A stretch of 47,090 nt of DNA from a virus: positions 1 to 47,090 of IMG/VR virus record IMGVR_UViG_3300030329_002192; one strand, written 5' to 3'. Of this stretch, positions 12,101 through 35,167 are shown one piece after another (position 1 is the first letter of the stretch; each line of letters starts with the position of its first letter). The notes under the pieces are model-generated. The model ran no database searches, was not told the origin of the DNA, and was given only the letters and a program-made list of their open reading frames with translations. A program made the translations under genes and the position numbers.

Positions 12101-12180
12101 CAACACTTACTTCTCTCGATATAAACGATATTTCAATTGAATATAGAGTTATTAGAGGCAGAAAGGTGGTTGCTACATAA
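9115..12180 (+). CDS. Large tail protein (tail nozzle/stabilisation type)
   Basis: A 1,021-residue protein starting at GTG 9115. The opening block, FSGGLNNLKNARDISNNQL, matches the conserved start of podovirus tail tube-B/nozzle and stabilisation proteins (SGGLN ... N/D-x-Q/E). Residues about 720-810 contain repeated blade-like segments (GYVALVEHADRLLAFKERSM, PYGIIWMNPYGLYLYSGGG) typical of the beta-propeller part of these proteins. The middle is Ser/Thr/Asn-rich and could hold a carbohydrate-binding insertion. It should form the distal hub of the short tail. The stop overlaps the next start (TAATG). Confidence 0.65.
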   Translation: MPKQVAILNDFSGGLNNLKNARDISNNQLHDIQNMMVDMQGGMGITPRFASYSSTVPDIANTVPSTAVGYGLGAFETDFEYTSTSTTIYALGADELNGAGATWWQLGDSAGSATQTGWNTSNSDDFGTSWTLGGNTAVHSTGNTTTLFNDADDGSGRSNLTASANYRIIYTMSGRSAGSVTFKCGNGSASSAISTNATSYVDVVCGTGDLDKIITITPTSDFDGTLDDVEVRVRFGGGAKGGLFFSTTTDSTGDNVNLLTGWTWENSNQSNNNNINLVNSFPVGSWIKISDAYVNQGLVTTLNSGRSVNEGLYHVIGSVAAGSSGSSLYLHKPVTTENNVTATITGLKSTGETLILNADAPTGNIALYTRVNPSKTWAKGDSGSPYANAKIDLRPAPSANYSPASEMLVRYYRANGAIRCCDTVKTNGNVIKWFGLINFTHWKGTGAANPIFGYEEHNNRLEMPTDGHVYPDNDLADATVNSQIEQLDVGAGFSLFIKSSSDAGTYSLSTGQSFEFSQTFIYDGNQESLPSVMTDNAGAAETFDVDDLTDLKALDMRVIARGQSDYNNRITGGRIYIRIKDSGDPWALLVDMDLEQGARTSLDSEWIAWSLGTTTTYNNSTTSNTMYFVGSSAGTLQSHEMSIVTYEVINGFPADVKSNSLGYQMENWSDSVVTNNRAFVCNVQYVETNSSGANTPRNYPDKIMYSMPNRYDTFPEMNFIEAVRGDSDGYVALVEHADRLLAFKERSMQLINISSPNDANWFLEESYKWMGVLHPEAVKETPYGIIWMNPYGLYLYSGGGIRNLIEDTIDPSFYKSLVTSSSILGYDPIKAHIILQFNTHASATKGAIFDLKKNTYVKMAGLILGTYTNMIVNPNDGYLFYGVKDSTSTDFNYYDSTDRSLSSALNSITFTTKDIDFGDPSSIKKVYKVIITYKSSGSLISNLKYYINSIIPAYGSASTFDTGVADAASDWEIGTFEINNGVVCQSFGLIFESTGTTLTSLDINDISIEYRVIRGRKVVAT

Positions 12181-12914
12181 TGCCCAATATATCAATAGAA
12201 AGATTATCGAGAAGAAATCAAAATATAAAACAAGATAAATTGTTACTTGTTAATATACATCCATCTGTTTCCACTATGCGTGAAGGTGAAGAAGTATTGT
12301 ATCAGGGTAAGAATAAGCCACTTAGGAGATATCGTAAGCAGAACGGCATTCTATGGTATTCTGATATGACTCGTGATGGCAATGAATTTGTAGATAAAAA
12401 TCTAAAAGTAGAAAAAAATATTATATCTAACGGGAATTTACAATTAAATAATATTCCTATTTTTGAAGCTTACAGCACTGGGCAAACCGATCTTGGAGTA
12501 GGAACAGGTAGTATTACGCAGATTCAGTTTGCATCTGAAAAAATAGATAATACAAGTTCTTTTGCGAGTCATAACTTTGTTGCTCCTGTAGAAGGATATT
12601 ATTATTTATACTACAATGTAAGTTTTAATCAAATAGATACAGCAATGGACGAAGCTTTATTAGGCATGAAACAGGGAAGTGCTTATTTTAATGTTTCAAG
12701 CCTTGATGATAAGGATTATTCTGCAGATACAGATTCTGATATAAATAAATCAGCATCTTGTGTTAGAAGTCTTGCTGTTGGGGACACCATAGGCGTTTAT
12801 TGGCTCCAAATTTCAGGGTCTGCACAGGTAGATGTAGTTGCTCATCGTGAAGCTGGAACTAGCCCCTATCCTGCAACTTCTGTTTTTGGTGGTTATTTAA
12901 TAAGTACATATTAA
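12180..12914 (+). CDS. Tail adhesin with C1q-like C-terminal domain
   Basis: A 244-residue protein. Residues 1-85 are basic (RRNQNIKQDK, GKNKPLRRYRKQNGILWYSD) and probably bind the tail. Residues about 93-244 fit a C1q/TNF jelly-roll: ITQIQFASEKID, then FVAPVEGYYYLYYNVSF, RSLAVGDTIGVYWLQISGSA and a closing TSVFGGYLIS strand. C1q-type heads form trimers and are used as adhesins. Coupled by TAATG to the large tail protein. The family call rests on the pattern of conserved aromatic and glycine residues. Confidence 0.65.
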   Translation: MPNISIERLSRRNQNIKQDKLLLVNIHPSVSTMREGEEVLYQGKNKPLRRYRKQNGILWYSDMTRDGNEFVDKNLKVEKNIISNGNLQLNNIPIFEAYSTGQTDLGVGTGSITQIQFASEKIDNTSSFASHNFVAPVEGYYYLYYNVSFNQIDTAMDEALLGMKQGSAYFNVSSLDDKDYSADTDSDINKSASCVRSLAVGDTIGVYWLQISGSAQVDVVAHREAGTSPYPATSVFGGYLISTY

Positions 12915-15293: not shown

Positions 15294-15902
15294 ATGAATC
15301 CACAATTAATTGAGATGCTTATGCATCAATATGAAATAGATCCAAGGCAATTCACAGATAGACAAGCAGAACAAATAGCTATATTGGCTAGGCAATTTGG
15401 TTTAAGATTTCCAAGAGAGTCAAAACCTATTCGTAAATTTGCTTTTGATTTAGCAGACACTGCTGCTTTAGGGATGCTTCCTAACGAATGGCGACCAAGA
15501 TCTAGAGGTCAATCTGTATTCGGAGAAACAAGATCAGATCGTTGGGCTGGCGGTTTAGGTACTGGAATACCTTTAGCTGCTGGTGGATTACTCGCACTAG
15601 CTAATCCAGCAGCTGTAGGTAGTATGGTTGGTAAAGGCTTAGGCTATGGGGCTAAAGGGGCTAGAGCAACTAAAAGAGGTATAGAGTCTGCTATGGGTCG
15701 TGGTGGCATATTTGAACGAGCAGCAGAAGGGGCTGGTCGTACTTATAGGACAGCAAAAAATACATATACTAGCGGTTTACCCGGTAATGCCCAGTTTGGA
15801 CCCGGATTTTTGGGGATGATGAATGCCGCTTGGAATAGAGGTGCTGGAAATCCATTAGCTATGGCTGGTAGACCTTGGGGATTTAATCCTACACTTGTCT
15901 AA
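15294..15902 (+). CDS. Gly/Ala-rich virion protein (possible ejection protein)
   Basis: A 202-residue basic protein. Residues 1-60 are soluble and helical (EIDPRQFTDRQAEQIAILAR). A Gly/Ala-rich segment at about 87-115 (GLGTGIPLAAGGLLALANPA) could insert in a membrane, followed by basic repeats (GARATKRGIESAMGRG). The first residues resemble the first 60 of the giant protein downstream (short acidic and Gln-rich helices followed by RKQSPFSLRRAF there), a hint of shared docking, but similarity is weak. Confidence 0.45.
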   Translation: MNPQLIEMLMHQYEIDPRQFTDRQAEQIAILARQFGLRFPRESKPIRKFAFDLADTAALGMLPNEWRPRSRGQSVFGETRSDRWAGGLGTGIPLAAGGLLALANPAAVGSMVGKGLGYGAKGARATKRGIESAMGRGGIFERAAEGAGRTYRTAKNTYTSGLPGNAQFGPGFLGMMNAAWNRGAGNPLAMAGRPWGFNPTLV

Positions 15903-15908: not shown

Positions 15909-16796
15909 ATGTCTGCTCAGTTTGAAAATATATTAGAATTAGCACTGGTTAATGAAGATCTTTTACGTAAGTGGTCTACAGATAGACCAACTTACAATCA
16001 AAGGTCATATGATGATCTTATTAAAGCCATAGAAGCTGGTAATGTTAAAACGAAAAAGTGGACTAGAGAAGATTGGGAAAAAGGTGGTTATGGACGGCAG
16101 GGACAAAAAGATTATGAGATAGGTGGTTTTTACCAAGACGATACAATAAACTATCCTGTTGGTAATGAAGCTTCTATTCCTCATGAACTACTTCATTATT
16201 TTGGTGGTCATACTCCGGGTGGCGGATATGGCGTTCCTGAAATAGATCCATACAACAAAGCTGATGTCGCTTTAGGCGGATGGTTGCCTTCTCTACATCC
16301 AGCGGGAAGAAGTCCTACTCTTCCCGGTAATAATCCTCTTAGTGATTGGTGGAATCAAAATTACGCTACACAAGATACTGAATATTCTAATGAGCAGGGC
16401 TATCATCCTTGGTATGATGAACATGCTTATGATACAACAGCAGATTTAATGAAGAAAAATTTATTAAATTATATCTCAGGGCAACAGTTCAAAGGTCCAT
16501 TTATTGATCCAAAAACAGGGGAATCTAGATTAGCTCCCACAACTCCCACTAAACCTATTACTAAACCTGCTAGTCCTCCTGCTAAACCAAAATGGCAATT
16601 TCCTTGGTTCAAGCCTAAACCTAAGCCTGTTAATACTACAGAAAAGCCATTAAGATATGATCAAAATATGTATCCTATATATCAAAAGCAGAGCCAGAAA
16701 GCACAATCCTTCAGAGATGCATTTAGCTCTGCAAGAGAATCAGGTAGTAATATTTTTGAATGGGATGGCAGAGAGTATACAACTGAGTTAGCTTAA
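15909..16796 (+). CDS. HExxH putative zinc metallopeptidase
   Basis: A 295-residue protein. At residues 92-101 it has H-E-L-L-H-Y-F-G-G-H, an HExxH zinc site followed by a glycine and a further His. Metzincin peptidases have HExxHxxGxxH, so this is that pattern with the last His one residue early. The acidic and glycine-rich surroundings (PGGGYGVPEIDPYN) and a likely disordered Pro/Lys tail (SPPAKPKWQFPWFKPKPKP) follow. It directly precedes the giant protein with a TAATG overlap. A virion-carried protease that processes internal proteins or cell-wall material is a reasonable guess. Confidence 0.6.
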   Translation: MSAQFENILELALVNEDLLRKWSTDRPTYNQRSYDDLIKAIEAGNVKTKKWTREDWEKGGYGRQGQKDYEIGGFYQDDTINYPVGNEASIPHELLHYFGGHTPGGGYGVPEIDPYNKADVALGGWLPSLHPAGRSPTLPGNNPLSDWWNQNYATQDTEYSNEQGYHPWYDEHAYDTTADLMKKNLLNYISGQQFKGPFIDPKTGESRLAPTTPTKPITKPASPPAKPKWQFPWFKPKPKPVNTTEKPLRYDQNMYPIYQKQSQKAQSFRDAFSSARESGSNIFEWDGREYTTELA

Positions 16797-19700
16797 TGCC
16801 ATCTCAATACGAAGCCTATAAAGTACAGGATTTAATCAATCAGTACAGGGCTAATCCTGATATGTTTAATGAGGATCAGCTAGATCAGCTAGAACGAATT
16901 GCTGCTGATAACCTCATAGAATTTAAGCGTAAGCAGAGTCCTTTCTCACTAAGAAGAGCCTTTCAACAGGCAACAGCAGGTTTTGTAGAGGGACTAACTA
17001 CATTAGACCTAATTCCGAAAGAGCCACGTAATACCGGAGAGGCTATATTTAGACAGCTTGGACATCTTGCTGGTTTTGCTCCCGGTATAATGAAAGCACC
17101 TATATATGGTTTAGCTAAGATCACATCTAAATTTACTGGAAAAGAAATGAAAGATGTTCTTGGCGGAACAATAACTAAAGCTACATTATCTGGTATAGAG
17201 CGTTTAGATGCTATAGCCATTCCCATGATAGCATCACGTGGCACAAAGAAGCTCATAGATCGTCAGTTAAAAAAGACTGGATTAGAATCAAGAGATTACT
17301 TGGCAAGAGGTGCAAAGACAAGAGCGATAGCAGAAGAAGCATTAGGGCTTGCATCAGCTAGTGCTGTTAGCAGTGTATGGAAAGGTACAGATGCTATTAT
17401 TGACAGCTATATAGGAGGTGCTATTGCAGGTGGTGCTTTTGGCGGTATAGGTAATTTTGTTTCTCTAGGCAACTTGTATAAAGGTACACCTCAACAAGTT
17501 GAGCGAGCAGAAAAGATATTACGTACTGGATTAGGTGCTATGGTTACAGGTTTGCCTGCTACGTTACGTAATGAACCTACAGAGATGCAGATCTATGAGT
17601 ATTTATTAGGTGGTTTCTTTGGCTACAATACAAGACCTGCACATAAAGCTGCAGCACAGGAATGGATTGTTAAACCAGAGCGTAAACAATCAGAGTTTCT
17701 TGATCCAGAATCTTCTAAAGACTTTAAAAATTATAATAAAAATACAAGAGAGTACATATTAAATGAGCACGAAGGAAGCATAAAGCCTAACTCTGAAAAT
17801 CTGCAAGGTTCTTCTGGAATGTCTTTGAGCTATTTAGAGCAGGGCTTTCCAAATGTTAATTGGAGACAAAGAGCAGAAGCTCATTTAAGTAAGCACAAGA
17901 AGGATCCATATACACAGCAGGATATAAATAGATTTTATAGAAATGAAGCTGGAAGATTACATTATGAAAAATCTACACAACAATTTATTGAAGCTATAAT
18001 CCGTGAGAATGCTATAGCCAATCCACAGAATGATGACTTCCATGATCCAGTTGTAATACGTAGAGATAAAGTTGTTAATCTTGCTAAAGGATTTTATGAA
18101 AAAGCAGATAAGAAACTATATCCAGATGTCGGGCTATTTGCTGAGGCAATGGAGGGTGCAAGAGATAAAAGTATTGTTCGTGGTAAGCCAGACCCTGAAC
18201 TATTTATAAGAGAAATAAAAAAGGTAGTTGGTGAAGATCAGGTTAATAGTAAGACTGAAGCTAAGTTAAGAAGTTTTTTCCTTAAAGATGTGGAGCCATT
18301 ACAAGAAGTTTTAGTTTTAAAACTTACTCCAGATAATGACTTTCATGTATCTATAGAAAAAATGAAAGGTCAGGAGGTTCAAAATGTTTCTATCGGTGAG
18401 AGATATAATGAACTTCCAATAAACCAATTAGGAGAGGGATTTCAATTTCTTACTCATGCTATAGATAGATTTGGAAATCCTCTAAAAATATTAAGTCATC
18501 GTATAGTAGATAAAGATATAGAATTTAACATTAAGCCAAACCAAGTTGGCTTAATGCAGGATGCGTTAGCCGAACAGGGTAAGTATATATATAGTGGTGT
18601 CAAAGATAAAGATATGTTAATGGTAGCATCTTTTAAAGATGAATATGGTGGTATTACTGTTACTAAAGACAATCTTATTGATCTATTGTCTAAGGGTAAT
18701 TACAGAACAAGAAAAGCTATTGAAGAATCATATAGGCTTTCTCTAGAAGCGGAAAAAGAAGTATTTAATAATACTGACTTACATGAGCGTAAATGGGTTT
18801 CTAATATTATGCATGATGCCATTAATAATGGTCTTGTTAAAGGTGGTAACCTTGAAGGTATTAGTAATTTATTGACTAGTGGCTTTGGTAAAAGCGTAGC
18901 AGACGTTAATAAACGAATGCAACTGCTTGCGAATAGAATGACACCAATGTCAGCATCTAGTTTTGCTCAAACTAATCCTGATGGCAAGATGCGTGTTATA
19001 ATTGTACCTGATATAAATACTACTGGCATAAGTGACACAGATGGAGGAATGATATACAGACAAAAGTTTTTTGATGCAGGATTGCATGGCGTAGGACTGG
19101 ACCCGCAAGCTGGTCATTTTAAGCCAGTTATTGTAGGCAGAACAAGTGCTGGAACTCTTGCGACAAAATCCAATGGACAAAGAGCTACTGAAGTGTGGAA
19201 TAGATTCATGGAAAAGCATGGTGTGGATGCTATTATGTTTGATAGCAGTGCCAAGTTAAGAGGCTTACATGAGAATAGTAATATAAGATATGAAAAGAGT
19301 TGGCTTACTGCTAAAGATGGCAGTAAAACGCCTCAATTTGAGATGTTCCCTGAACAATTAAAAGTATATGAGTTACCAATTGAAAGTTTACAAATTAGTC
19401 TTGGAACATTTGAAAAGCCATTCAAACAAGTTATGGGAGACGAAATCCCTATCCAGTTTTACGGACAGGCGAATGCAGATCAAGCCAAAGGTTTTAAAGA
19501 ACTCTATTTTAAAGAAGCAGTTGAAAAATCTATATTAGGAAGTTCGAGAGGTCAAAACCTTGTAGATGCTTATAACAAAGCTGTTGAAGGTAAGAAAGGC
19601 AAAGCGAAAGATGCTGAAATGGATGCCTTTGTTAAGCTGTTTAACGATCATGATCTTGGTGTCATGGAATTGCCGCTTGATTTTGTTGTTGAATATTTAG

Positions 19701-22700
19701 CTACAAATAAAGATCCGAAACTTACATCTTTATTTATGAATAAAATTAATAAGCTGGATAAAGATGGATTCTTCGATAGAGACTTTGAGTTTGATGCAAA
19801 CGCTGATTATGCAAAGTTTCATGACCAGAGAAAGGTCATATCAGAATCTATGCGTGATCATTTTATGACAAGAAATGCTTTGTTTCATAGTAACTGGCAC
19901 AATGCATTAAAGAAATATTTAGTTAGAAGATTCTCAAATCCTTTTATTGAGACTGGTGGCAAGTCTTGGCTTAAAGCATATACCCCAGATCAGATGTCTT
20001 ATGTTGAAATAGATCCTTGGCTTATAAAGCACAAAGGAGATAAAGCTAGGGAATTACGAGAAGGAGAAATTTATTTAGATGAATCTTTTAGAAAGATGCC
20101 TGTGGTATTTAGGGACAAGCAACTCACCCTTGGCGAACTTTGGAAGTTATATCGTAGGGAATACACCAAAGGAATTTCCACTAAAGCTATGGGAGAGTTC
20201 AATGACGCTCTTACTTTACTTGCTATACGTATACCTGCTGATTCTATGTCTGGAACACGCTCTCTTAGATTCAGAGGATTTACAGGGCAAAGAGGTGCAG
20301 GATCATTTACGCACGACAAAGACAACTTCTACCTTGGTGGCGCAGATAAAGACTCAGACTCAATTAAAATATTTCAGGGGTTCAGTAAAAAGCTGAGGAA
20401 ATATTTTGAGAATGTTAAAGATGAAAGAGCACATTTAGAATCAAATAAGCCTTATTCAGAGTTTTTAGACGGGAAGTTTACTGAAGTAACAAACCCAGAG
20501 ATGTTAAAGCGTTATAGGGGTGTTAAAGAATTTCTAGATCGAGAACAAAAAACAAAAAGAAATCCAGATTTCGAGCATTACAATGCTTTTAAATATTCAC
20601 CTGCATATAGATATAAAGCAGCACAAAATTCAACACGTGGGAAGTCTGGGCTTGGCTATGGATTATCTTCTGCAGTTGTTATGCGACAGTGGGTAGATTA
20701 TGTTAAAGCTAAAGATGGTGCTTACAGTTTTGATTTTTATCATCCAGAGAGGAATAAAGAGTATTTAGTAGACATCACTTTGAAAGAAGAAATGATTCAT
20801 GGTATTCCTAATGAACAATATTTCCGTGATCTTATTTTTAAAATTGTAAATAAGTCAGCAGATGCAAGCAATGATCCAACGGTTATTCCTTATAATAAAT
20901 TTCGTGATTTGCTTTTTGACTCTATGCTTGATGTTAATGTATATGAAAAAGGATCAGGTAAATTAGCCAGTTCTGGTGAATTTAAGTATCAGGATATTCT
21001 TGACTGGGGTCCAAGTAGTGCTCTTGGTTTATTGCGAGAAGCTGTTAATGTATCTAAACCTCTTTCAAAAGTTCGCTCAATAGCATCTAAAAGACTTAAG
21101 CCTTTATTGGAGGAGAAAATTGTAAAGGGAAAAAAGGTTACTATTTTAAAAAAAACAGGCAACAAATTAATAGCTGATCTAAAGTGGAATGATTATATAG
21201 GCTTATCTAGAGGTGAGTCAGCTAATATTTATTTAGAAGGCAAACAGGTTTCTATAACAAATATAACTGGGGCTACTCCAAATAAATTAGTATATAAAAT
21301 TAATGAGTTTCCTAAGGATTCTATGAGTTTATTTGATGTTGTATTTACAAATTCTAGAGTAGCAGCAAAAGCTTTAGGAGATAAAGCTTTTAATACATCT
21401 GTAATACCTCTACTTCCACTACGCATGGAAAAAGCTGGTATTAACTTTGAAAAGTTTCAGTTTTCTGATATTAATAAAGCATATAAAAAATTATATACTA
21501 CACTAGATGTTAAATTATTAACACCATCAGAAGGTATTAAGGGTAAAGACTTTAAAGGTAAACTTGTTTCCTATTCTAAAAAAGAAATTCAGAAATTTGT
21601 CAATGATCATTTAGGTATCCTAACTGAAGATATGCTTATTTCATCTTCTGGAGCTATTGGTAATTTAAGATTAAATAGAGAGATGGGTTATGCATTAGAT
21701 TTAACATCTAGGACATTCGGGCAATTTGCTGCCATAGAGCTTGCAAATAAACATTTCCTAGACATACACCAGGCAATGGCAAATAAGGGCGTTAAGGGCA
21801 ATATAACTAAGGAATTTATTCCTCAAATATTTGAGATGAATAAAAGACTTAAAGAAATGATCCGTTCAAAAGAAGATGATATTGAAATAGATATTCTTAT
21901 TGAGAAAGGCAATCAGAAAATTATGGATCTTGCTGATAAATATGGAATAGATCCTAATCCAATGATGAAATACTTTCATACAATTTTACTTTCGCCTATA
22001 ACTGGCTTAAAGCAGAAAGGTGGAAAAAACTTTCCCCTTGTTAGACATGATGAGAAAGTACATGGGTCTAAAAGTATAGACCCAATGACAAGGCGTGAGT
22101 ATTATTCCAGAATGGAAGATTTATATAACAGATCTAAAGTTCCTGATAAAGCTGTTGAACTTGATGTTAAAGTTGATGTTAAGGTTCCAATGGATGTCTT
22201 TGAACCAAAGGCTACATTAGATGCCTTTAAAGAAATAGATCATGTAATTAAGTCAGATGCATTAGACCTTATGGCTATAAACAAGCCGCAGGTAAAGGAG
22301 ATTAAGAAGTTTAAAAAATTCCTTAAAGATCATCCTTTTTTGGCTGATAACTTTAATGAATGGTTCAAGTTCTTTACTGGAGAATTATCTGGTAGAGGCA
22401 TACCTAGGAGTGCTACAGATTTTAAGATGGAGGATGTTGTAGCTATAAACAGATTCATGGAACAATTTCATGATCCAAAAAATCTTGAGTTTAAATTAAA
22501 ATACTGGCATTTAGATCCAAGGTTTGTTGATAGTGAAATGGCTATGAAGGGTATCATAAATAAATATAAGGCTTATCATTCTCCAGTTAAACATGGATCA
22601 GGCAAGATTAAGAATGAACCTGTATATAGGTTTATGTCTCCTATAGGAGCTATATCACAATATGTTCTTAAATCAGAGCGTGGTATATCTAAAGATAGAA

Positions 22701-25276
22701 ATGCTTCAGAAAAAGTTTTTAAGCCTATTAGTGATATTTTATCTAAATATACTATAGATCAGGGACATTCCATGTTTGATAAACTTATAACAGCCAGAGA
22801 ATCCGGCAACAAGGAGAATCTTTCTCCTGTCTTAAAGAAGTTAGATGCTGAAGTAACAAAATTCTTTAGAGATATGGGTGAAAAATGGATATATACCTAT
22901 GACTCAAAAATGAATAGAGTATCCGATAAGCTAGGCAATTGGGAACTCGATAATGATTTTGATGCTTGGTATAAAAATACCAGAGGTAAAATGAACAAGC
23001 ATATGCGTTGGAATAAGGATGGTATATTTGATTTTAAGCATTTTAGAGATACTGTAGTAGATAAGGACATGACAAGACCTGACCTTATAAAAACTGTAGG
23101 CATTGATGGTTTGAAGCGTTATGAATATGAAAAAAGATTGATGGAGATTCTCAAAGCAAGACTTGAGAAAACTCCAGACATGAATGTAGGTAAATTCATT
23201 AAAGGATATCGCTCTGGTAAAAATAAGTTTTCAGGAATAGGTCAAAGAAATGCTGAAGAATATATACCGCATTTGAACTTTGGTTATAATGATGCTGCAC
23301 AGCGTGATTTTATTAAATCTATTCAAGTAGAAGCTGACAGAGTAGAGAATAGAGTTTTCAAAGAAACTAAAAGTGTAAAGCAAGCTGAAAAAGCTAAAGA
23401 GTTATTTATCAGAAGAATGGAGAGAAAGGCTCAGTTTTCTACAGAGTTTTTTGGCATTAAAGATTTAATAGATACTCAAAAAATAACAGATGCAGAGCTA
23501 GATGCTAAACTTGAACAAATGGGCTTTGACAGTAAGATTTCTGTATTGGAGGCTCGTGAATTAGATCTTAAGGGTTATGACAGACGACCAAATCTTATAG
23601 CTGATTATCATTCAAAACTTATTAATGGATGGTATAAGAATCTTGTAGCTATAAAGGGTGACTATGAGATAAGTAATATGAAACATAGAATGCGTAATTA
23701 CAAAACAAGTAAAGTTGAAAAGAAGAAGTTTAAAAACAGTAAGCGTTATAATAATTATATAGACGTATGGAGTGATTATGTTAAGCTTTATATGCAGAGT
23801 GCTTTAGGTCATCAGTCTTATTTCCCTCAAGAAATAATGACTGAAATTGAGAGAGGCATAGATCCTCTCTATCTAAAAGATAAACGAAATTTGTTTTATC
23901 TTACATCTGATCAGAATATGATTAAAGCCTATGAAAAACTATGGCAGTCAAAGAAGTGGAAAAAAGTTCCATTTATAGGTAAAACATTAAGGGATGCTCC
24001 TAAAGATAAGGAAGCAAGAAAAGAGTACTTTTCTCGTAAGATACATGACTTCGGCAGGATGGAAGCACAATATGAATTGATGACTCTGTTAGCAAACACA
24101 GGGACATGGGCTACTAATATATTTAGTGGCAATCTTATGACACTCGGCAGTGCTGGCGTTAGAAACTTTAAGAATGCTTTTAATAATGAAAAGATATATA
24201 GTAGGCTTCTTTCTAACGAAAAAGGTAAGCCAGTATTAAAGCTTTTTGACGGAAGTTCTGTTAAGAATAAAAAAGATCTTCATGAATGGCTCAAGGAACG
24301 TGGTGTTATAGACAACTTCATACAAAATGAATTTGAGTATAACGAGGGTTTAAAAAACAGCCTCAAGAAGGCTGGTGTAAATATAAGTGATTTTAAGCGA
24401 GATATTAGTAAGGCTATTAAGAGTCATCCGAAAGTACGTGAAGAAAGCATAGGTCAGGTTATTGAGCGTTATGGAGTAAAAGATGCTATGCTTAAGTATG
24501 GATCTTTCTTTATGCAGCATTCTGAGCGTGTAAATCGTCTAAATGCTTTCATTGCTCACGGGTTACAAGCTGTTGAGAAGTTTGGACCTGAAGGTAGAAA
24601 TCTTAGCATTGCTGATGATTTTGTTTTTGAGATGGCTATGAAAGGCATAGAGAATACTCAGTTCTTATATCAGAACGCATTACGTCCTGCTTTCATGCGT
24701 ACAGCTACAGGTAAGGTTCTTTCAAGATTCAAACTGTTTGTTTGGAACTCTGTAAGAGTTCGTAAAGAATTTTACAACCAAGCAAAGCTATATGGATTTA
24801 GAAGTGGAACTCCTGAGTATGAAAGATTTAAGGATATGTTTATGATAGACATGTTTATGATGGCACTGGGCAGTGCTTTCATGTTTAGTATCTTTGATAC
24901 TGCACTAGCACCTCCTTATGATTGGATCCAAGCTATGGCTGATTGGACATATGGTGATAAGAGAGAGCGTGACATGGCTTTCTTCGGATCAAAGCTTGGT
25001 CCAGCTAATCTATTAAAACCGCCTATAGCTAGAATACCTGAATCAATGATAGAGCTTATGACGGGTGATTGGGAAAAGTTTGCTGATTATTCTGTCTACA
25101 CTATGTTTCCATTTGGCAGAGCAGTGAGACAAGCTAAACAAATTTATGAAAGACCAGAACGTGTAGGTGAAGTATTGTTAAGACTACCTGTTAATAAAGT
25201 ACAGTCACGTATAGATAGAGCTAAACGAAGAGGTCAACAAATGGAAGAGATTGAGCAATTCTTAGGAGAAGCTTAA
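16796..25276 (+). CDS. Giant virion protein with two-barrel RNA polymerase-like core
   Basis: A 2,826-residue protein, by far the largest here. Seen: N-terminal helices with hydrophobic stretches near residues 83-108 and 202-222. A first motif block has D747-T-D-G-G-M, K776-P-V-I, A-T-K791-S and D816-S-S-A-K820-L. A second block has R1145-I-P, F-R-G-F-T-G-Q-R-G and G-G-A-D1184-K-D1186-S-D1188. A C-terminal part has a hydrophobic segment near 2683-2702. Known: single-chain polymerases of crAss-like and other large phages have two double-psi barrels, the first with catalytic lysines and the second with D-x-D-x-D metal ligands; the R-x-P to aspartate spacing (about 40) fits. Inferred: a packaged RNA polymerase injected with the DNA. 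The usual glycine of D-x-D-G-D is Ser here, so activity is unproven. Confidence 0.75.
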   Translation: MPSQYEAYKVQDLINQYRANPDMFNEDQLDQLERIAADNLIEFKRKQSPFSLRRAFQQATAGFVEGLTTLDLIPKEPRNTGEAIFRQLGHLAGFAPGIMKAPIYGLAKITSKFTGKEMKDVLGGTITKATLSGIERLDAIAIPMIASRGTKKLIDRQLKKTGLESRDYLARGAKTRAIAEEALGLASASAVSSVWKGTDAIIDSYIGGAIAGGAFGGIGNFVSLGNLYKGTPQQVERAEKILRTGLGAMVTGLPATLRNEPTEMQIYEYLLGGFFGYNTRPAHKAAAQEWIVKPERKQSEFLDPESSKDFKNYNKNTREYILNEHEGSIKPNSENLQGSSGMSLSYLEQGFPNVNWRQRAEAHLSKHKKDPYTQQDINRFYRNEAGRLHYEKSTQQFIEAIIRENAIANPQNDDFHDPVVIRRDKVVNLAKGFYEKADKKLYPDVGLFAEAMEGARDKSIVRGKPDPELFIREIKKVVGEDQVNSKTEAKLRSFFLKDVEPLQEVLVLKLTPDNDFHVSIEKMKGQEVQNVSIGERYNELPINQLGEGFQFLTHAIDRFGNPLKILSHRIVDKDIEFNIKPNQVGLMQDALAEQGKYIYSGVKDKDMLMVASFKDEYGGITVTKDNLIDLLSKGNYRTRKAIEESYRLSLEAEKEVFNNTDLHERKWVSNIMHDAINNGLVKGGNLEGISNLLTSGFGKSVADVNKRMQLLANRMTPMSASSFAQTNPDGKMRVIIVPDINTTGISDTDGGMIYRQKFFDAGLHGVGLDPQAGHFKPVIVGRTSAGTLATKSNGQRATEVWNRFMEKHGVDAIMFDSSAKLRGLHENSNIRYEKSWLTAKDGSKTPQFEMFPEQLKVYELPIESLQISLGTFEKPFKQVMGDEIPIQFYGQANADQAKGFKELYFKEAVEKSILGSSRGQNLVDAYNKAVEGKKGKAKDAEMDAFVKLFNDHDLGVMELPLDFVVEYLATNKDPKLTSLFMNKINKLDKDGFFDRDFEFDANADYAKFHDQRKVISESMRDHFMTRNALFHSNWHNALKKYLVRRFSNPFIETGGKSWLKAYTPDQMSYVEIDPWLIKHKGDKARELREGEIYLDESFRKMPVVFRDKQLTLGELWKLYRREYTKGISTKAMGEFNDALTLLAIRIPADSMSGTRSLRFRGFTGQRGAGSFTHDKDNFYLGGADKDSDSIKIFQGFSKKLRKYFENVKDERAHLESNKPYSEFLDGKFTEVTNPEMLKRYRGVKEFLDREQKTKRNPDFEHYNAFKYSPAYRYKAAQNSTRGKSGLGYGLSSAVVMRQWVDYVKAKDGAYSFDFYHPERNKEYLVDITLKEEMIHGIPNEQYFRDLIFKIVNKSADASNDPTVIPYNKFRDLLFDSMLDVNVYEKGSGKLASSGEFKYQDILDWGPSSALGLLREAVNVSKPLSKVRSIASKRLKPLLEEKIVKGKKVTILKKTGNKLIADLKWNDYIGLSRGESANIYLEGKQVSITNITGATPNKLVYKINEFPKDSMSLFDVVFTNSRVAAKALGDKAFNTSVIPLLPLRMEKAGINFEKFQFSDINKAYKKLYTTLDVKLLTPSEGIKGKDFKGKLVSYSKKEIQKFVNDHLGILTEDMLISSSGAIGNLRLNREMGYALDLTSRTFGQFAAIELANKHFLDIHQAMANKGVKGNITKEFIPQIFEMNKRLKEMIRSKEDDIEIDILIEKGNQKIMDLADKYGIDPNPMMKYFHTILLSPITGLKQKGGKNFPLVRHDEKVHGSKSIDPMTRREYYSRMEDLYNRSKVPDKAVELDVKVDVKVPMDVFEPKATLDAFKEIDHVIKSDALDLMAINKPQVKEIKKFKKFLKDHPFLADNFNEWFKFFTGELSGRGIPRSATDFKMEDVVAINRFMEQFHDPKNLEFKLKYWHLDPRFVDSEMAMKGIINKYKAYHSPVKHGSGKIKNEPVYRFMSPIGAISQYVLKSERGISKDRNASEKVFKPISDILSKYTIDQGHSMFDKLITARESGNKENLSPVLKKLDAEVTKFFRDMGEKWIYTYDSKMNRVSDKLGNWELDNDFDAWYKNTRGKMNKHMRWNKDGIFDFKHFRDTVVDKDMTRPDLIKTVGIDGLKRYEYEKRLMEILKARLEKTPDMNVGKFIKGYRSGKNKFSGIGQRNAEEYIPHLNFGYNDAAQRDFIKSIQVEADRVENRVFKETKSVKQAEKAKELFIRRMERKAQFSTEFFGIKDLIDTQKITDAELDAKLEQMGFDSKISVLEARELDLKGYDRRPNLIADYHSKLINGWYKNLVAIKGDYEISNMKHRMRNYKTSKVEKKKFKNSKRYNNYIDVWSDYVKLYMQSALGHQSYFPQEIMTEIERGIDPLYLKDKRNLFYLTSDQNMIKAYEKLWQSKKWKKVPFIGKTLRDAPKDKEARKEYFSRKIHDFGRMEAQYELMTLLANTGTWATNIFSGNLMTLGSAGVRNFKNAFNNEKIYSRLLSNEKGKPVLKLFDGSSVKNKKDLHEWLKERGVIDNFIQNEFEYNEGLKNSLKKAGVNISDFKRDISKAIKSHPKVREESIGQVIERYGVKDAMLKYGSFFMQHSERVNRLNAFIAHGLQAVEKFGPEGRNLSIADDFVFEMAMKGIENTQFLYQNALRPAFMRTATGKVLSRFKLFVWNSVRVRKEFYNQAKLYGFRSGTPEYERFKDMFMIDMFMMALGSAFMFSIFDTALAPPYDWIQAMADWTYGDKRERDMAFFGSKLGPANLLKPPIARIPESMIELMTGDWEKFADYSVYTMFPFGRAVRQAKQIYERPERVGEVLLRLPVNKVQSRIDRAKRRGQQMEEIEQFLGEA

Positions 25277-29330: not shown

Positions 29331-29352
29331 TATCTACTCCTTGGTATGCGAT

Positions 29353-29393
29353 AGAGAGGCACAAATAAAGTAAAGAGTAATCTGTGCCTCTCT
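29353..29393 (-). terminator. Stem-loop behind the primase-helicase gene
   Basis: AGAGAGGCACA (29353-29363) pairs perfectly with TGTGCCTCTCT (29383-29393): 11 base pairs with a 19-base loop. Read rightward a TTTT follows; read leftward ATCGC follows, so it is not a strong leftward terminator. It may be an RNA processing or stabilising hairpin between the primase-helicase message and the gene at 29330. Confidence 0.6.
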
Positions 29394-29466
29394 TTTGAGT
29401 ATATCCGGCTTTATAAAGTTTCCTTTGCACACAGTCGGTTTTATTACTGTTGGCTTCAATACTCAT

Positions 29467-31287
29467 TTAGTTTAGTTTGTCAAAACTGAAAGTTTCCCAG
29501 TTGTAATTTACTGTAAGCTTGAAATGTGATTCATCTCTTGCTTTCAGGGACTCTATAGTTCTGATTTTACTTCTCTCAACACCTTCAAAACTTATGTATT
29601 GATCTGATTTCTGTTCAATAGCACTATTTCCTTTACCGCTATGCACATCTAAACGCTGTCCTTCTTTCGTACCGTAAGACGCACTTTTAGATATGTGATG
29701 TACCGCTAAGATTATCACATCTTCTTTCATTGCTATATCTTTTAAACCATTAGCTATTATTTCTTGTCTTGCAAAGTCGTCTTTACCAGCATACTTAGCT
29801 GGAACACGATCTATTGTATCAATAACAACAATCTTAGCTTCACTTTCAGATATAAATGCTCCAAGATCTTGTATATCAGGGCTTGAAGGCTGTAATGAAA
29901 TATGAGATATAGATTCTATAGCTCTTTTTGCTACTTCAGGGTCTTTTAATTTTATTAAAGTTTCTTCTTTAGTCATATTAAGAGATGCCTGTACAAATCT
30001 TCTACTCATTGTTTCGTCATCTACTTCCAGTGAAAAGAACAGTGTTTTTATCTTTTTAAGTTTTACGATTAGGTATTGAATGAATGCTGTTTTACCCAGA
30101 CCGGTATCACCTATAAGAGTGATAAGCTGTCCTGCGTTAAACATATGCTTTTGTGGTAAGAACGGAAATACTTCCTGCAGATTGAATGATCTATCTGTGT
30201 AATCAGAGTTTATACTTTCCAGTAATTTGTTGATCATATCTTCAGCATTAAGTAATTCTGCTGTTTCATCAAGGTTCTTATACTTGAACAATATACATTT
30301 ACTATCGCAGTATGGCTCTAATGTAGGATGGTTACATCCATAATTGTAGTCACTCTTAAACACATCAGAAACAACCTTACTTGTTTCTTCTGCAGGGAGT
30401 GGTTCATCCATTCTTGCCATATATGCTCTTGCTAAATTATCACAGCCGTGTTTATCCAGACCCCATTTCTTACGCCATATACTGGCTAATGCAAGAAGAT
30501 GTTTATGTCTGTTCTTTGGTACGTAACCTGCATTATATATGTGTTGTGCACATGTAATATATCTACTGGTCTGTCCTTTGGCATTATCAAACACTTTACG
30601 CACTTCTGCTACGTTTTTACGGCTCATATCCATAGGATCTAAACCTTCAATCTTTCCGTGTTTGATTTTAGTTGGTGCTGCATGCCCATTCATTCTTCTT
30701 GCGTCTTCAGTTATCTCAGCATAAGAAGAATTTTCAAGAACTAGATAGGTTACTGGTATTTTAAACAAAGCTGATTTTGTATTGTAAGAGTATCCTGCAC
30801 GTATCAGTCTCCTTGAGTCATAGATTAAATCTATATATTCTCCCCAGTCTCTTTGCATTGTAGCACGAACCTGTTTAGCTATATTAATGGATGGTTCAAA
30901 TCCATAGACATTTCCAAGATGTATGTGAAATCCTGTTCCAGAAAACCATATCTGATAGTGAACATCACGCCAGATCTCCTTCTTTTCCATTGCATCCAAT
31001 AGATCTAAAACTGCCTTAATAGTTAGTTCATCTCCATTGGTTCGGTCTTTAACATAGTCTATATCTATTACAATCTTATCTACTGCCTGTATACCGTTAA
31101 ATCCTGTTACTGTATCATTTTCCGCTACATATGCTACAATATCAGGAGAGTATAAGAACATGCTACGGTAGACTTCCCCACCTGCATGTTTTTGTGCTAT
31201 TTCTGGAAAGTTTTCCAGTCTGCACAAATGATTTCTGTTACTTACATTCCCTGTTGCGTATTCTAAATACCAATCTTGCTTTTCCAT
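29467..31287 (-). CDS. Primase-helicase (AEP-like primase fused to RecA/DnaB-type helicase)
   Basis: A 606-residue replication enzyme. N-terminal half: V-I-D75-I-D77 metal-binding motif, S116-G-T-G-F-H121-I-H and the D157-S-R-R-L-I-R block match the three motifs of archaeo-eukaryotic-type primases. A C-x-H ... C-x3-C cluster near residues 318-331 may bind zinc. The C-terminal half has Walker A G393-D-T-G-L-G-K399-T, a Walker B-type IVVIDTID and VHHISKS, as in DnaB/RecA-fold helicases. It should unwind and prime phage DNA. The ATG follows an ACGTAGGAGT site. SSB-like and ERF genes lie upstream in the same unit. Confidence 0.8.
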   Translation of the reverse strand: MEKQDWYLEYATGNVSNRNHLCRLENFPEIAQKHAGGEVYRSMFLYSPDIVAYVAENDTVTGFNGIQAVDKIVIDIDYVKDRTNGDELTIKAVLDLLDAMEKKEIWRDVHYQIWFSGTGFHIHLGNVYGFEPSINIAKQVRATMQRDWGEYIDLIYDSRRLIRAGYSYNTKSALFKIPVTYLVLENSSYAEITEDARRMNGHAAPTKIKHGKIEGLDPMDMSRKNVAEVRKVFDNAKGQTSRYITCAQHIYNAGYVPKNRHKHLLALASIWRKKWGLDKHGCDNLARAYMARMDEPLPAEETSKVVSDVFKSDYNYGCNHPTLEPYCDSKCILFKYKNLDETAELLNAEDMINKLLESINSDYTDRSFNLQEVFPFLPQKHMFNAGQLITLIGDTGLGKTAFIQYLIVKLKKIKTLFFSLEVDDETMSRRFVQASLNMTKEETLIKLKDPEVAKRAIESISHISLQPSSPDIQDLGAFISESEAKIVVIDTIDRVPAKYAGKDDFARQEIIANGLKDIAMKEDVIILAVHHISKSASYGTKEGQRLDVHSGKGNSAIEQKSDQYISFEGVERSKIRTIESLKARDESHFKLTVNYNWETFSFDKLN

Positions 31288-31307
31288 TGTAACTCCTACG
31301 TTTTAGC

Positions 31308-31352
31308 ACAAGGGACATAAATTAAACCTGCTAGTCTATCTTATGCCCCTGT
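31308..31352 (-). other. Leader stem-loop before the primase-helicase gene
   Basis: ACAAGGGACATAA (31308-31320) pairs with TTATGCCCCTGT (31341-31352), about 12 pairs including one G-U pair and one bulged A, loop of 20. It lies in the 87-base spacer 20 bases upstream of the primase start. No T-run follows. Possible attenuator or RNA processing site. Confidence 0.55.
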
Positions 31353-31374
31353 ACTTTTTACCACTCAATCAATG

Positions 31375-31956
31375 CTATATATCTAAGTCGAAATTTGCAG
31401 TTTCCTTTTCAGGTTCTGTAGTTTCGGCTTTCTGACCATTAGCATTGTTACCATAATCAAAATCAGTTGATGGATCATCAGACTGATAATTCTTGATATA
31501 GTCACCTTCTACATCTTTGAGTATCTTATTTTGTAAAGTACCTGGCAATGCATTAGGTGGTGCTACAATAGAATATGTATTCCAAAATGGTTTCCCATTT
31601 CTTTTTACTTTATTGGTTTTATAAGATGCTACCATGAATTGCTTACCGATTACTTCATCAAATAATGATTCAGGCACAGTGTAATCATCTTTCATTGCAA
31701 TACTTCTTTTCCCTGTACAGGATTCAAAGAATGTTCTTACTTTAAATGCAGATCCCCATGATTTCTGGTCAGTTATTGGTAAGTTTTTCTTTACGTTGCC
31801 GTAAACTTCCAATTCCTTATCCCAGCTTTGACCGTCGTTATACTTGACGGTTAGGAATATGTTCCATACTGGGTTCCAATTTCCCCAGTTTTTCTCTACA
31901 TCGTAATCTATATTTACAGATTTAACTGTACCTATAGTTTCACTTATTGCTGGCAT
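31375..31956 (-). CDS. Putative single-stranded DNA-binding protein
   Basis: A 193-residue protein. The first 140 residues show a beta-type pattern with aromatic residues (NWGNWNPVWNIFLTVKYND, WNTYSIVAPP), consistent with an OB fold. The last 40 are acidic and disordered and end in ANFDLDI, reminiscent of the acidic hydrophobic tip that SSBs use to recruit partner proteins. Directly downstream of the ERF gene (TAATG overlap) and upstream of the primase-helicase, the usual SSB location. Inferred, not motif-proven. Confidence 0.6.
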   Translation of the reverse strand: MPAISETIGTVKSVNIDYDVEKNWGNWNPVWNIFLTVKYNDGQSWDKELEVYGNVKKNLPITDQKSWGSAFKVRTFFESCTGKRSIAMKDDYTVPESLFDEVIGKQFMVASYKTNKVKRNGKPFWNTYSIVAPPNALPGTLQNKILKDVEGDYIKNYQSDDPSTDFDYGNNANGQKAETTEPEKETANFDLDI

Positions 31957-32576
31957 TATGCAGTCTCCTTTTGTTCTTTTATTTGTTTTGTAAGTTTCTC
32001 TATAGCAGCATTAGCTTCTTCTTCAGTAGGGTTCTTATCTATGAAGGATCTCACTTTCTTAGATTTATCTTTATCTGTTTTGTTAAATACAGGATTTCTG
32101 CTTAGTCTTTCCAGTTTAACATTCTGATCTACTGTAATATGACCTTTAACAGGTTTTTGTCCATTGATCAGTGTTTCTTCACGGTTATCCATACTGTCTG
32201 CATCTTTAGTATCGTCAATTGCAAATAGACCGTTACAGGCATATTTACGTGCATAAGATGATGTAGCTCCAGTAATCTGGCTATCGTCCATACCTTTCTT
32301 AGTTACAGACTCTCTAGCCCATCCTTTTACAGATATAGAATCATTGCCATCACTAAATGTTGCTGTTGCCTTGATATAGTTGAATCCATTGATACATACA
32401 ATTTCATCGTCTACAGTTAAAAAGCAACCTAATTCATTGAGTAGTGGTTTCACACCTTCAAAGATATCTGCAAGATTGCGATAGTTATAGTTTCCGAAAT
32501 TGTTTCTGTGACCCTTCTCTACTTTAAGAGATGTCTGAACAATATTCAGTTTTTGAAATACATTAAGTTCTTCCAT
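31956..32576 (-). CDS. ERF-family single-strand annealing protein
   Basis: A 206-residue protein. NIVQTSLKVEKGHRNNFGNY and NYRNLADIFEGVKPLL near the start, then ITGATSSYARKYACNGLFAI and DDTKDAD, are the signature blocks of the ERF superfamily (phage essential recombination function), ring-forming proteins that anneal complementary strands. The C-terminal 60 residues are charged (KKVRSFIDKNPTEEEANAAI) and probably hold a helical domain. It probably works with the putative SSB and the PD-(D/E)XK resolvase-like nuclease. It lies after a 386-base structured non-coding region. Confidence 0.85.
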   Translation of the reverse strand: MEELNVFQKLNIVQTSLKVEKGHRNNFGNYNYRNLADIFEGVKPLLNELGCFLTVDDEIVCINGFNYIKATATFSDGNDSISVKGWARESVTKKGMDDSQITGATSSYARKYACNGLFAIDDTKDADSMDNREETLINGQKPVKGHITVDQNVKLERLSRNPVFNKTDKDKSKKVRSFIDKNPTEEEANAAIEKLTKQIKEQKETA

Positions 32577-32962
32577 GTATTTGTTTTCCTTTCTTATTGT
32601 TTAAACCGTTGGGAACAAAGGTCGGCTCACCTAGGATGTGTTGCCTAGTGTCTGTTCCCGCAGGTTTCTTTAGTGTGAGACTCTCCCCAGAGTTCCACCA
32701 CTGAAATTAATTTAGCAAAGCAGTAAGAACCATGCTACGAGTTTAAGCCATCCACAGTTATATTCGGTTCTCATGTACTTCCTTCTTCAACTGGGGGCAT
32801 ATGTACTTTATTAAGCCATCTACTTTGCTAATCTTAAGCTGTGGTATTGCAATACCATCTTACTGGTTCCTGTAGTCGTAACCTGCCAAAAATGAAGGAA
32901 GCAGTATCTCCATTAGACTTTGCGGAGTCCTTGGTGTGTGTGCAATACTACTTCCTTCGAGG
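32577..32962 (-). other. Structured non-coding region upstream of the ERF gene
   Basis: No gene of useful length. Leftward it holds: a long hairpin (32894-32958); a perfect 16-base palindrome TGGTATTGCAATACCA (32842-32857); a long-range pair of TTAGCAAAG-type arms (near 32701-32712 and 32822-32833) enclosing two copies of GATGGCTTAA; and a nested hairpin, GGGAACA (32611-32617) with TGTTCCC (32653-32659), around CCTAG/CTAGG. Such dense pairing in a compact genome suggests a structured RNA, leader or replication element. Unclassified. Confidence 0.6.
32894..32958 (-). terminator. Hairpin directly behind the DUF932 gene
   Basis: GAAGGAAGCAGTAT (32894-32907) pairs with ATACTACTTCCTTC (32945-32958): 13 of 14 positions, one mismatch, 37-base loop. 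Leftward it is followed by ATTTTTGGCA, a T-rich tail, five bases after the DUF932 stop. This fits an intrinsic terminator with a large loop. It shares the CTGC(C/T)TCCTT ... ATTTTTGGC block with the terminator at 36269-36304. Confidence 0.65.
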
Positions 32963-34015
32963 TTATGAATAGTAAACAGGTCCAGCTTCAGTATGATAGC
33001 TATTAGAGTATTGTTCGGCTACTTTGTAAGCTGTGACTTTGTAGTCATAAGGCTTACCAAACTGTGTAGCCTGTACCCAGTCTTTATACTGTTTATCATG
33101 TGTATAGTATTCAGTCACGGCATTATAGGCATCCCATAGGGTTTTGCCTTTGTTTCCCTGTCCTTTACGATACAGATGTATCAATCTATCATATACTGGT
33201 TTAGCAGTATTTCTGAAGAATATTCCTTTTTCTGGAATACTCTCTTTGTTCCTGTTCTTTAAGAATGGTATAACTGTTTCTAAATATAGATCTAATGTAT
33301 GATCATTAAGTTCTATATCCTGAAATCTATTCATACTTTCTATAGCTTTAGCAAAGTTACCTTCACTTTCAGCTATAGTTTCTTTCAGATTCATTACACG
33401 CTGTTTAATACTGCTTGTATGTTTTAAGCTATACTCGAAAGTACCTTTCTTGCTTAATGCATAGTCCAGTGTATTGTAACATACAATACGGATCATCGTA
33501 TCTCTAAAGCAATTACCAGTGCTGCCGTCATGTGATGTAAACATAAATACGTAACGATTTATTCTATCATCACCTACGTGATACTTTTCTGGTGCTTTAG
33601 CCAATACCCATATCTTTTTACCATTTTGAACTGCTCCTGCAGTTTCCAGTGTAAAACCCATGTCAAGCATAGGTTCAAATGGTTCAAATGCGTCTCTGTT
33701 TTGTAGTATTTCATACCTTGATGACACATTGCCTAATGGTTCGCCTGTATCTGTTCTATATGTTACATAGTGACCTGTTTCTTTATGGTATGATTTTTTT
33801 ACAGATCCCAGATTCCAGAATTTTTCACCTAGATTCTGGTAATACCTACTGTCTTCTTTATTTACTTCGAAATAAGTAGGTGCTTTTCTTACTTCCCATT
33901 CTAAACCTGCTAATTCTATAGCATCTTTTATACTGGGTGCTTCATGTACCATAGTCCCTTGTTTATGCCAAGGTATCTCTCCTACGTACATCATTGTATC
34001 AATATAGTCAGGCAT
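32963..34015 (-). CDS. DUF932 phage/plasmid-like protein
   Basis: A 350-residue protein. PWHKQGTMV near the start, YVTYRTDTGEPLGNVSSRYE, then MFTSHDGSTG and IRIVCYNTL are recognisable blocks of the DUF932 family (TIGR03299 type), common in phages and plasmids. Biochemical function is unknown; it is usually found near recombination and ssDNA genes, as here. The ATG overlaps the stop of the winged-helix gene upstream by eight bases. Confidence 0.8.
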   Translation of the reverse strand: MPDYIDTMMYVGEIPWHKQGTMVHEAPSIKDAIELAGLEWEVRKAPTYFEVNKEDSRYYQNLGEKFWNLGSVKKSYHKETGHYVTYRTDTGEPLGNVSSRYEILQNRDAFEPFEPMLDMGFTLETAGAVQNGKKIWVLAKAPEKYHVGDDRINRYVFMFTSHDGSTGNCFRDTMIRIVCYNTLDYALSKKGTFEYSLKHTSSIKQRVMNLKETIAESEGNFAKAIESMNRFQDIELNDHTLDLYLETVIPFLKNRNKESIPEKGIFFRNTAKPVYDRLIHLYRKGQGNKGKTLWDAYNAVTEYYTHDKQYKDWVQATQFGKPYDYKVTAYKVAEQYSNSYHTEAGPVYYS

Positions 34016-34325
34016 TTTTATTCTCCTTTATAAAGTTGTAGCTTGGAATTGTCCAGATATACTCATCTCTTCCGTAATATCCTTTACGTTTCTTTTTAGT
34101 TTTGTATAGCTTTCCTTCTTTAGTAAGGTTTGTAATACTTCTCCTTATTGAAGTAATGGGTACGTTACCAACATTTTTACTGCTGAACCATACCCATACT
34201 TCCGATGGTGAGGCTATGACATGCTCATGAAAGTAGTTTAATATCATATCATCTTGCGTACCAGCTTTAGAATGATATTCTTTTAAAACTCCTGAACTCT
34301 CTTTTGTAGTATTATAATATGACAC
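34008..34325 (-). CDS. Winged-helix DNA-binding protein
   Basis: A 105-residue protein. TQDDMILNYFHEHVIASPSE, then ITSIRRSITNLTKEGKLYKT and a basic wing (KKKRKGYYGRDEYIWTI) match a winged helix-turn-helix: a first helix, a recognition helix ending in the hydrophobic E-G-x-L-x-K turn and a beta wing. A small phage transcription regulator or DNA-binding accessory is likely. It is coupled to DUF932 by overlap. Confidence 0.6.
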   Translation of the reverse strand: MSYYNTTKESSGVLKEYHSKAGTQDDMILNYFHEHVIASPSEVWVWFSSKNVGNVPITSIRRSITNLTKEGKLYKTKKKRKGYYGRDEYIWTIPSYNFIKENKNA

Positions 34326-34326
34326 T

Positions 34327-34533
34327 TTATTCCCCTTGTTCTTTATCGAAGAGTTTTATACAGTTTTCGACTACATCAATTAATGTTCTGTAATACTCGT
34401 CTATTTTATTGTTATTCCTATCTATGTGTTCATAGCGATAGGCATTTAAAGCGTCTAGGATAGCCTGTACTTCACTTTTTTCATCAAAGGCTATAGCAGG
34501 TCGCTTATCGGGAGATCTTGCTATTTTAGGCAT
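34327..34533 (-). CDS. Small helical protein (hypothetical)
   Basis: A 68-residue protein with a basic start (MPKIARSPDKRPAIAFDEKS) and helices after it (EVQAILDALNAYRYEHID, YYRTLIDVVENCIKLFD). The start overlaps the AbrB-like gene's end by eight bases. No family recognised. Confidence 0.45.
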   Translation of the reverse strand: MPKIARSPDKRPAIAFDEKSEVQAILDALNAYRYEHIDRNNNKIDEYYRTLIDVVENCIKLFDKEQGE

Positions 34534-34741
34534 TATTTTGTTTTCCCTTAGTTTTCTTAATGAATGTTAATTTTACAGAACCTGCTGTAGATATTTCCCA
34601 ATCGTTATAACTTATTTCACTTCCTGTTATTGCCGTTACAGTTACTGAATAATCTTTTGGGTTAATGTTGTTTGCGTGGAAGAAAGCTAATGGTAATGTT
34701 ATTCTTCCTCTTTGATCTATGTTGCATTTAGCTATATTCAT
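34526..34741 (-). CDS. AbrB/SpoVT-type swapped-hairpin DNA-binding protein
   Basis: A 71-residue protein. Residues 7-40, with IDQRGRITLPLAFFHANNIN then PKDYSVTVTAITGS, follow the SpoVT/AbrB pattern (x-D-x-R-G-R-I-(T)-(I/L)-P ... L/I-x-P-(G/K)-D). This swapped-hairpin fold binds DNA as a dimer and is used in regulators and antitoxins. There is no toxin gene beside it, so a phage regulator is more likely. It overlaps the 47-residue membrane gene by 14 bases. Confidence 0.6.
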   Translation of the reverse strand: MNIAKCNIDQRGRITLPLAFFHANNINPKDYSVTVTAITGSEISYNDWEISTAGSVKLTFIKKTKGKQNNA

Positions 34742-34871
34742 TGTTTTTTATTTTCCTTTCAATGTTATCATATATAAATATGAAACCCATTATTGAACAC
34801 ATGACCAGAAATAGTCCTGCACCAAACATAAACAGGTTAATTATGACTTCCATTATTTCAAATATTATCAT
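34728..34871 (-). CDS. 47-residue single-span membrane protein
   Basis: A short frame with GGAG six bases before its ATG. It has one long membrane segment, running from FEIMEVIINLFMF through GAGLFLVMCSIMGFIFI, and a polar tail (IERKIKNNEYS). The tail end lies inside the AbrB-like gene in another frame. Early phage membrane peptides are common but this one has no named family. Confidence 0.5.
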   Translation of the reverse strand: MIIFEIMEVIINLFMFGAGLFLVMCSIMGFIFIYDNIERKIKNNEYS

Positions 34872-34873
34872 AA

Positions 34874-35140
34874 TTACTCCTGCTCATGTATGATTACACC
34901 AGTAATGCCGTAGTCTTCCATGTGTTCTAATGTTCTTACAATATCTTTACTGGTTTGATTGTCTTTTGTTTTTAGCGTTGCTCCATCTACAATTAGTTCA
35001 ATCTTGTATCGTTTAGCATTGGTTATTGTGTCTGCAACAGCCACAGATCCGCTTTTTACAGCCTTAAAGACCTGATTTATAGCGAATGCTGTATAACCTA
35101 AGCCTTTAGCAACTCCTGTGTATATTCGTGCTGTACTCAT
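34874..35140 (-). CDS. Small alpha/beta early protein (hypothetical)
   Basis: An 88-residue protein. The first half is helical and Ala/Gly-rich (GVAKGLGYTAFAINQVFKAV), the second alpha/beta (RYKIELIVDGATLKTKDN, EDYGITGVIIHEQE). It is basic. The stop is two bases before the start of the membrane peptide gene, so the genes are linked. No family recognised. Confidence 0.5.
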   Translation of the reverse strand: MSTARIYTGVAKGLGYTAFAINQVFKAVKSGSVAVADTITNAKRYKIELIVDGATLKTKDNQTSKDIVRTLEHMEDYGITGVIIHEQE

Positions 35141-35167
35141 TCTTTATCTCCTAAGAATTTTTTTAAA

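Follow-up and report, generated by a model that had tools for sequence, protein, structure and literature searches.

The giant open reading frame that closes the late/tail gene cluster of this phage raises the question of whether its product is an RNA polymerase that is carried in the virion and ejected into the host, as an earlier note on this DNA had proposed.

The phage and its relatives

The window, by which we mean the whole stretch of 47,090 nt analysed here, carries a 99-nt direct terminal repeat (positions 1-99 are identical to 46992-47090) and, since this repeat is present at both ends, the genome is complete. The portal is of the P22 type (E 4e-58) with Vibrio P22-type phages as nearest relatives; its identity is mostly 73-90% within the group and about 28% at best to cultured phages. 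The terminase is nearest to N4-like phages, at 24%, so that the designation as a P22-like phage in the earlier note holds for the portal but not for the terminase. With these nearest relatives, the phage falls outside the Crassvirales: the window is the complete genome (~47 kb) of an uncultured phage that is not a crAss phage. A T7-type RNA polymerase (PF00940) was sought in the window phage without a match, and the control genomes likewise gave none; as the cellular controls were silent, this negative leans in addition on family scans and on the list of ORFs, where none of the unassigned ones resembled such an enzyme. A family-A DNA polymerase was searched for as well and not found in the window phage.

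Relatives of the giant protein, complete or in part, turned up on about 30 contigs in scans of IMG/VR. One homologous fragment lies on a contig binned as Flavobacteriaceae UBA5079 (L047, DIAL01000052.1), a weak hint at the host. In the L044 record (G019, 88,986 bases) the portal gene occurs twice, with 86% and 55% identity to that of the window; this contig may have arisen by chimeric assembly or by the joining of genomes.

Conservation, homology and predicted fold of the core

The motifs listed in the earlier note were all present at the residues given: DTDGG (747), KP (776), TKS (790-792) and DSSAK (816-820) in block 1, RIP (1145), FRGFTGQRG (1159) and GGADKDSD (1181) in block 2, and both blocks fall within coordinates 18998-20420 (Table 1). 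Their conservation was determined in an alignment of 16 full-length proteins of about 2,650-3,300 residues, comprising the window protein and 15 others that are 37-72% identical to it. Invariant in block 1 were K776, P777, K791, Q795, S817 and K820. R1145, P1147, D1149, S1150, R1158, R1160, G1161, Q1165, G1167, G1169 and H1173 as well as G1181, G1182, D1184, D1186, D1188, S1189 and K1191 were invariant, too. Thus, K791, K820 and the three aspartates, which the earlier note had named as the residues to look at, are conserved throughout; of its block-1 motifs D749-G750 and K820 stood, but D747 (D/K/N) and D816 (D/N/T/E/L) turned out to be variable. Within the entire giant protein, no 60-residue stretch is better conserved than block 2 (mean conservation 0.84), and dN/dS of the core was 0.08-0.18. 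Judged from this alignment, the motifs are not chance occurrences. The fourth position of DxDxD, canonically Gly, is occupied by S, A, I or G among the 16 homologues, and one homologue (L020/L044) has the canonical DKDGD.

Table 1 Position of the giant gene, its parts, its shared-module neighbour and the early-strand element in the window
Feature	Position	Strand	Remark
Late protein, 202 aa, with shared N-terminal module	15294-15902	+	profile match E 2e-4 (window copy)
Giant ORF, 2,826 aa, last gene of late/tail cluster	16796-25276	+	proposed ejected virion RNA polymerase
N-terminal module of giant protein, about residues 5-90	16808-17065	+	common to ~200-aa upstream late protein
RNAP-like core as modelled, residues 629-1600	18680-21595	+	
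Block 1, residues 746-823, DPBB-A-like	19031-19264	+	invariant K776, K791, K820
Block 2, residues 1141-1194, DPBB-B-like	20216-20377	+	R-x-P ... GGADxDxDS
Predicted metal-binding loop D1184-K-D1186-S-D1188	20345-20359	+	three Asp invariant in 16/16 homologues
37-residue helix after block 2, residues 1269-1305	20600-20710	+	present in both models
Strongest hydrophobic segment, residues 2682-2700	24839-24895	+	in highly conserved C-terminal region
Early element, weaker copy	29352-29387	-	within 14-bp hairpin
Candidate early promoter element	36254-36289	-	upstream of ORF 35988-36233
Candidate early promoter element	37598-37633	-	upstream of ORF 37223-37567
Early element copy	37832-37867	-	at 3' end of tRNA-Tyr
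Early element, divergent copy	38137-38172	-	before small ORF
Early element, weaker copy	38671-38706	-	before ORF 38394-38657
Early element, weaker copy	38960-38995	-	before ORF 38723-38944

Pfam and PHROGs gave no match in the core of the window protein, sequence searches of the PDB, with the giant protein or its profile as query, returned nothing useful, and the whole giant gene found no match in INPHARED by tblastn and megablast, so that the full-length protein has no relative there that could be recognised. With block 2 as query, the sole match in the phage database was the RNA polymerase of the crAss-like phage cr111_1, which is non-significant alone (E 0.5). The two sequences align without gaps from R-I-P to D-x-D-x-D, 39 residues in each, and have L-R-x-[KR]-G-F-x-x-Q-x-G-x-G in common. 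The same R-to-D spacing of 39 is found in 6VR4, the virion RNA polymerase of phi14:2, in line with the earlier note, which had seen in the order of lysine block and aspartate block and in the RxP-to-Asp spacing the pattern of single-chain double-psi-barrel (DPBB) polymerases. A profile was then taken from ten aligned Crassvirales RNA polymerases (it retrieves 6VR4 at 2e-91) and compared with that of the window family. Block 2 matched with P 3.1e-6 and the AKLRG end of block 1, which aligned to the lysine block of the crAss enzymes, separately with P 4.2e-6; the score of 62.2 exceeds all those from 60 column shuffles (at most 26.5) and from the reversed profile (23.3), and with block 2 removed it still amounted to 46.7 vs a shuffle maximum of 21.8. 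6VR4 reads DFDID and lacks the canonical Gly, too; therefore, Ser in place of Gly in the window protein is no sign of inactivity, and the doubt about activity that the earlier note had attached to it is unfounded. The core is homologous to crAss-like virion RNA polymerases in both catalytic blocks, and we regard its homology to two-barrel RNA polymerases as practically certain.

The predicted fold pointed to the same enzymes. An AlphaFold2 model of residues 629-1600 (pLDDT 73, pTM 0.73) had 6VR4 as top Foldseek match in the PDB (E 8.3e-10, probability 1.00), followed by plant RDR2, Pol IV and bacterial beta'. With a second, poorer model of a trimmed core (pLDDT 68) 6VR4 again came first (E 9.4e-8, probability 1.00), and the matches behind it were nearly all cellular and viral RNA polymerases. 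Over the two models, the cellular or RNAi enzymes next to 6VR4 were RDR2, Pol IV and Pol II or bacterial beta'. Among the predicted viral proteins of BFVD 22 matched at E<1e-3; the best were unnamed A0A516 entries, and most of the named ones belong to the Crassvirales, including S0A2C3 of phi14:2. TM-scores to 6VR4 were low (TMq 0.28-0.33) and the whole-chain rmsd was 23-24 Å. Given these scores and the moderate pLDDT, the arrangement of the domains and each barrel individually remain unproved; the barrels were not dissected one by one. What the models support is a similarity of the predicted core fold to solved two-barrel RNA polymerases, without proof of domain placement. At this level, neither of the two refuting conditions of the earlier note that computation can address, a different predicted fold and poorly conserved aspartates, came true. 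The long helix that follows block 2 is, from its modelled position, a candidate bridge helix.

Location in the tail cluster and proposed role

Of 14 genomes scanned with a profile of the first 130 residues of the giant protein, 13 had a single upstream ORF that passed the inclusion threshold, with E-values of 4e-7 to 1e-3 over about 90 residues of these ~200-aa proteins. Hence, both neighbours share an N-terminal module, a likeness that the profile alone detects (BLASTP of the giant N-terminus against the 202-aa protein was insignificant) and that is possibly a packaging/ejection signal. The giant protein is hydrophobic around residues 206 and 2682. The last place in the tail/ejection cluster and the module common to a neighbour are compatible with an ejected giant protein.

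Other proteins of the cluster and parts of the giant protein gave additional observations. A 295-aa late protein adjoins the giant protein upstream (15909-16796); its HExxH zincin-like motif (HELLHYFGGH) is found in the closest relatives (L002, L007) and was undetected in most others. A tail-cluster protein encoded at 12180-12914 has a C1q-like domain. Towards its C-terminus (23936-25273) the giant protein bears a weak resemblance, at E 0.05 or worse, to PLxRFG/DarB-like proteins from podoviruses of Klebsiella and Serratia. Among the 16 homologues, 4 carry an AlkB-type 2OG-Fe(II) dioxygenase domain as an insertion in the giant protein and 2 carry DUF4326 (L002 and L020/L044 among the giant ORFs concerned); neither is present in the window protein.

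Known delivery systems offer partial counterparts. Like the window protein, for which the barrels are predicted, the crAss-like virion polymerases (phi14:2 gp66, crAss001, cr111_1) are giant single chains with both barrels and with the KP/K/AK lysine block ahead of RxP...GxDxDxD, but these phages have genomes of ~95-100 kb and not 47 kb with a P22-type portal and an N4-like terminase. Further, the window protein has extra ejection-type regions at both ends and is a single ORF, whereas three adjacent genes of cr111_1 are annotated as RNA polymerase or its subunits. Gp50 of N4 (Schitoviridae), the last-ejected protein of about 3,500 residues, has a membrane-type N-terminus, a central polymerase and a large C-terminus (PMC12633501); its layout resembles that of the window protein, and the terminases are similar as well, but the N4 polymerase is T7-type and the core found here is two-barrel. 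Gp96 of P23-45 is a two-barrel virion polymerase fused to the tail tape, for which an early promoter motif was reported (PMC10770324). Both it and, by inference, the window protein are two-barrel RNA polymerases fused into a giant DNA-delivery protein, but gp96 is a siphovirus tape measure, has DFDGD at residue 779 and is clampless; it was not among the Foldseek matches listed for the giant core. Polyvalent proteins (PMC5512222) are likewise giant, multidomain and of the injected type, and the inserted domains and the weak C-terminal similarity mentioned above recall them; in the portion of that survey available, the virion polymerases described are of the N4 type and a two-barrel core was not seen.

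By analogy with N4 gp50 (PMC12633501) and P23-45 gp96 (PMC10770324), we infer a single-chain two-barrel RNA polymerase that is packaged in the virion and ejected, with a core homologous to phi14:2 gp66 but in an unrelated podovirus lineage of ~45 kb with a P22 portal. Although presence in the virion and activity are both inferred, we hold this to be likely, and with the same good confidence take the protein for an injected early polymerase. It would be packaged in the virion and pass through the tail, its N- and C-terminal hydrophobic regions would sit in the envelope, and the core would refold in the cytoplasm. There, D1184, D1186 and D1188 would bind Mg2+, the lysines of DPBB-A would contact NTP and RNA, and the minus-strand early genes would be transcribed ahead of the takeover of the host, with the ACTGCTTCCTYTATTTNTG elements described below as the probable start signals.

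Since its virion location is only inferred, the protein could also be a two-barrel RNA polymerase that is made late and acts in the producing cell without entering the virion, as gp64 of P23-45 does (PMC10770324). We consider this improbable: the gene is the last of the tail cluster, the proteins are 2.4-3.3 k residues long with conserved hydrophobic ends, the N-terminal module is common to a late neighbour, and the giant fused phage RNA polymerases treated in the same paper (P23-45 gp96, crAss-like, N4-related) are virion enzymes. A catalytically dead fold, kept as a structural or ejection protein, would agree with the frequent replacement of the canonical Gly, yet neither the three Asp nor the three Lys vary, L044 has DGD, the solved phi14:2 enzyme itself manages with DFDID, and conservation is highest at the active-site block; we give this reading very little credence.

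A repeated element on the early strand

If the giant protein is an injected early polymerase, its start signal may lie among the early genes. In a de novo search of early regions the same repeated word recurred in several relatives. This ~19-nt element, ACTGCTTCCTYTATTTNTG, is located on the early strand of the window (29352-38995, minus) and also in L086-L089, L094 and L095. A matrix built from 15 sites of three genomes scored >14 at 43 sites in seven genomes, four of them outside matrix construction; all 43 belong to the early strand, the opposite strand of those early regions being without any, and most are 30-60 nt from the ATG. With a lower cut-off, the whole window gave nine minus-strand matches and a single plus-strand match. 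A degenerate pattern with three mismatches had about 109 matches in 22 records vs 8 for the reversed pattern, and its strand bias tracked the early direction in most records. The bias was weak in the clade of L009-L017, where upstream regions carry the reduced form TCCTTTATCTYTG; the motif is also reduced in the clade L090-L093. The exact 24-nt form of the window is absent from the relatives, and the degenerate form alone is shared. Inverted repeats around element copies are similar in L087, L088 and L094, and a hairpin of -11 kcal/mol (z -5.4) overlaps a weak copy in the window (29340-29395, minus). A hairpin promoter as in N4 was considered and rejected: a short GC stem follows the motif at 9 of the 43 sites (2.2 expected; at most 6 in 300 shuffles), at best a subset. 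Separately, a repeat with CCATTTTTTAACTTAA, spaced at ~35 nt, occurs four times in an intergenic region (38164-38364), possibly as origin iterons.

The ACTGCTTCCTYTATTTNTG element is a candidate early promoter and may be the start signal of the giant polymerase, its promoter use being inferred. Its core, TATYTNTG, resembles TAnnTTTG, the Bacteroidetes -7 box, so that host RNA polymerase might be able to read it. A host promoter, or a processing or terminator element as the copies in hairpins would allow, unrelated in either case to the giant protein, is therefore a real rival, with the homologue fragment in a Flavobacteriaceae bin adding to the host reading; we lean slightly away from it but cannot set it aside. 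No conserved upstream TTTG box was found near the element, the conserved ACTGCTTCC half lies outside the known host box, and the early genes have strong Shine-Dalgarno sites, which are unusual for Bacteroidetes. The usual position of the copies ahead of start codons, on the early strand, also speaks against this rival. Whether the giant polymerase uses the element is thus evenly balanced in our judgement. The same balance applies to the full proposal, in which uncultured podoviruses of ~45 kb outside the Crassvirales inject a two-barrel RNA polymerase fused to the last ejection protein and transcribe the whole early region from a dedicated ~19-nt promoter, independent of host RNA polymerase; we see it standing about midway between acceptance and rejection.

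With the giant protein, two-barrel virion polymerases reach beyond the Crassvirales into a lineage of small podoviruses, which suggests either that the core has spread horizontally or that a polymerase became fused to the DNA-delivery machine more than once. Since the genome is small and complete, no T7-type polymerase was found in it and a candidate promoter set is at hand, a single protein fragment and a DNA of ~40 bp would suffice for a direct test of how a single-chain two-barrel virion polymerase recognises its promoter.
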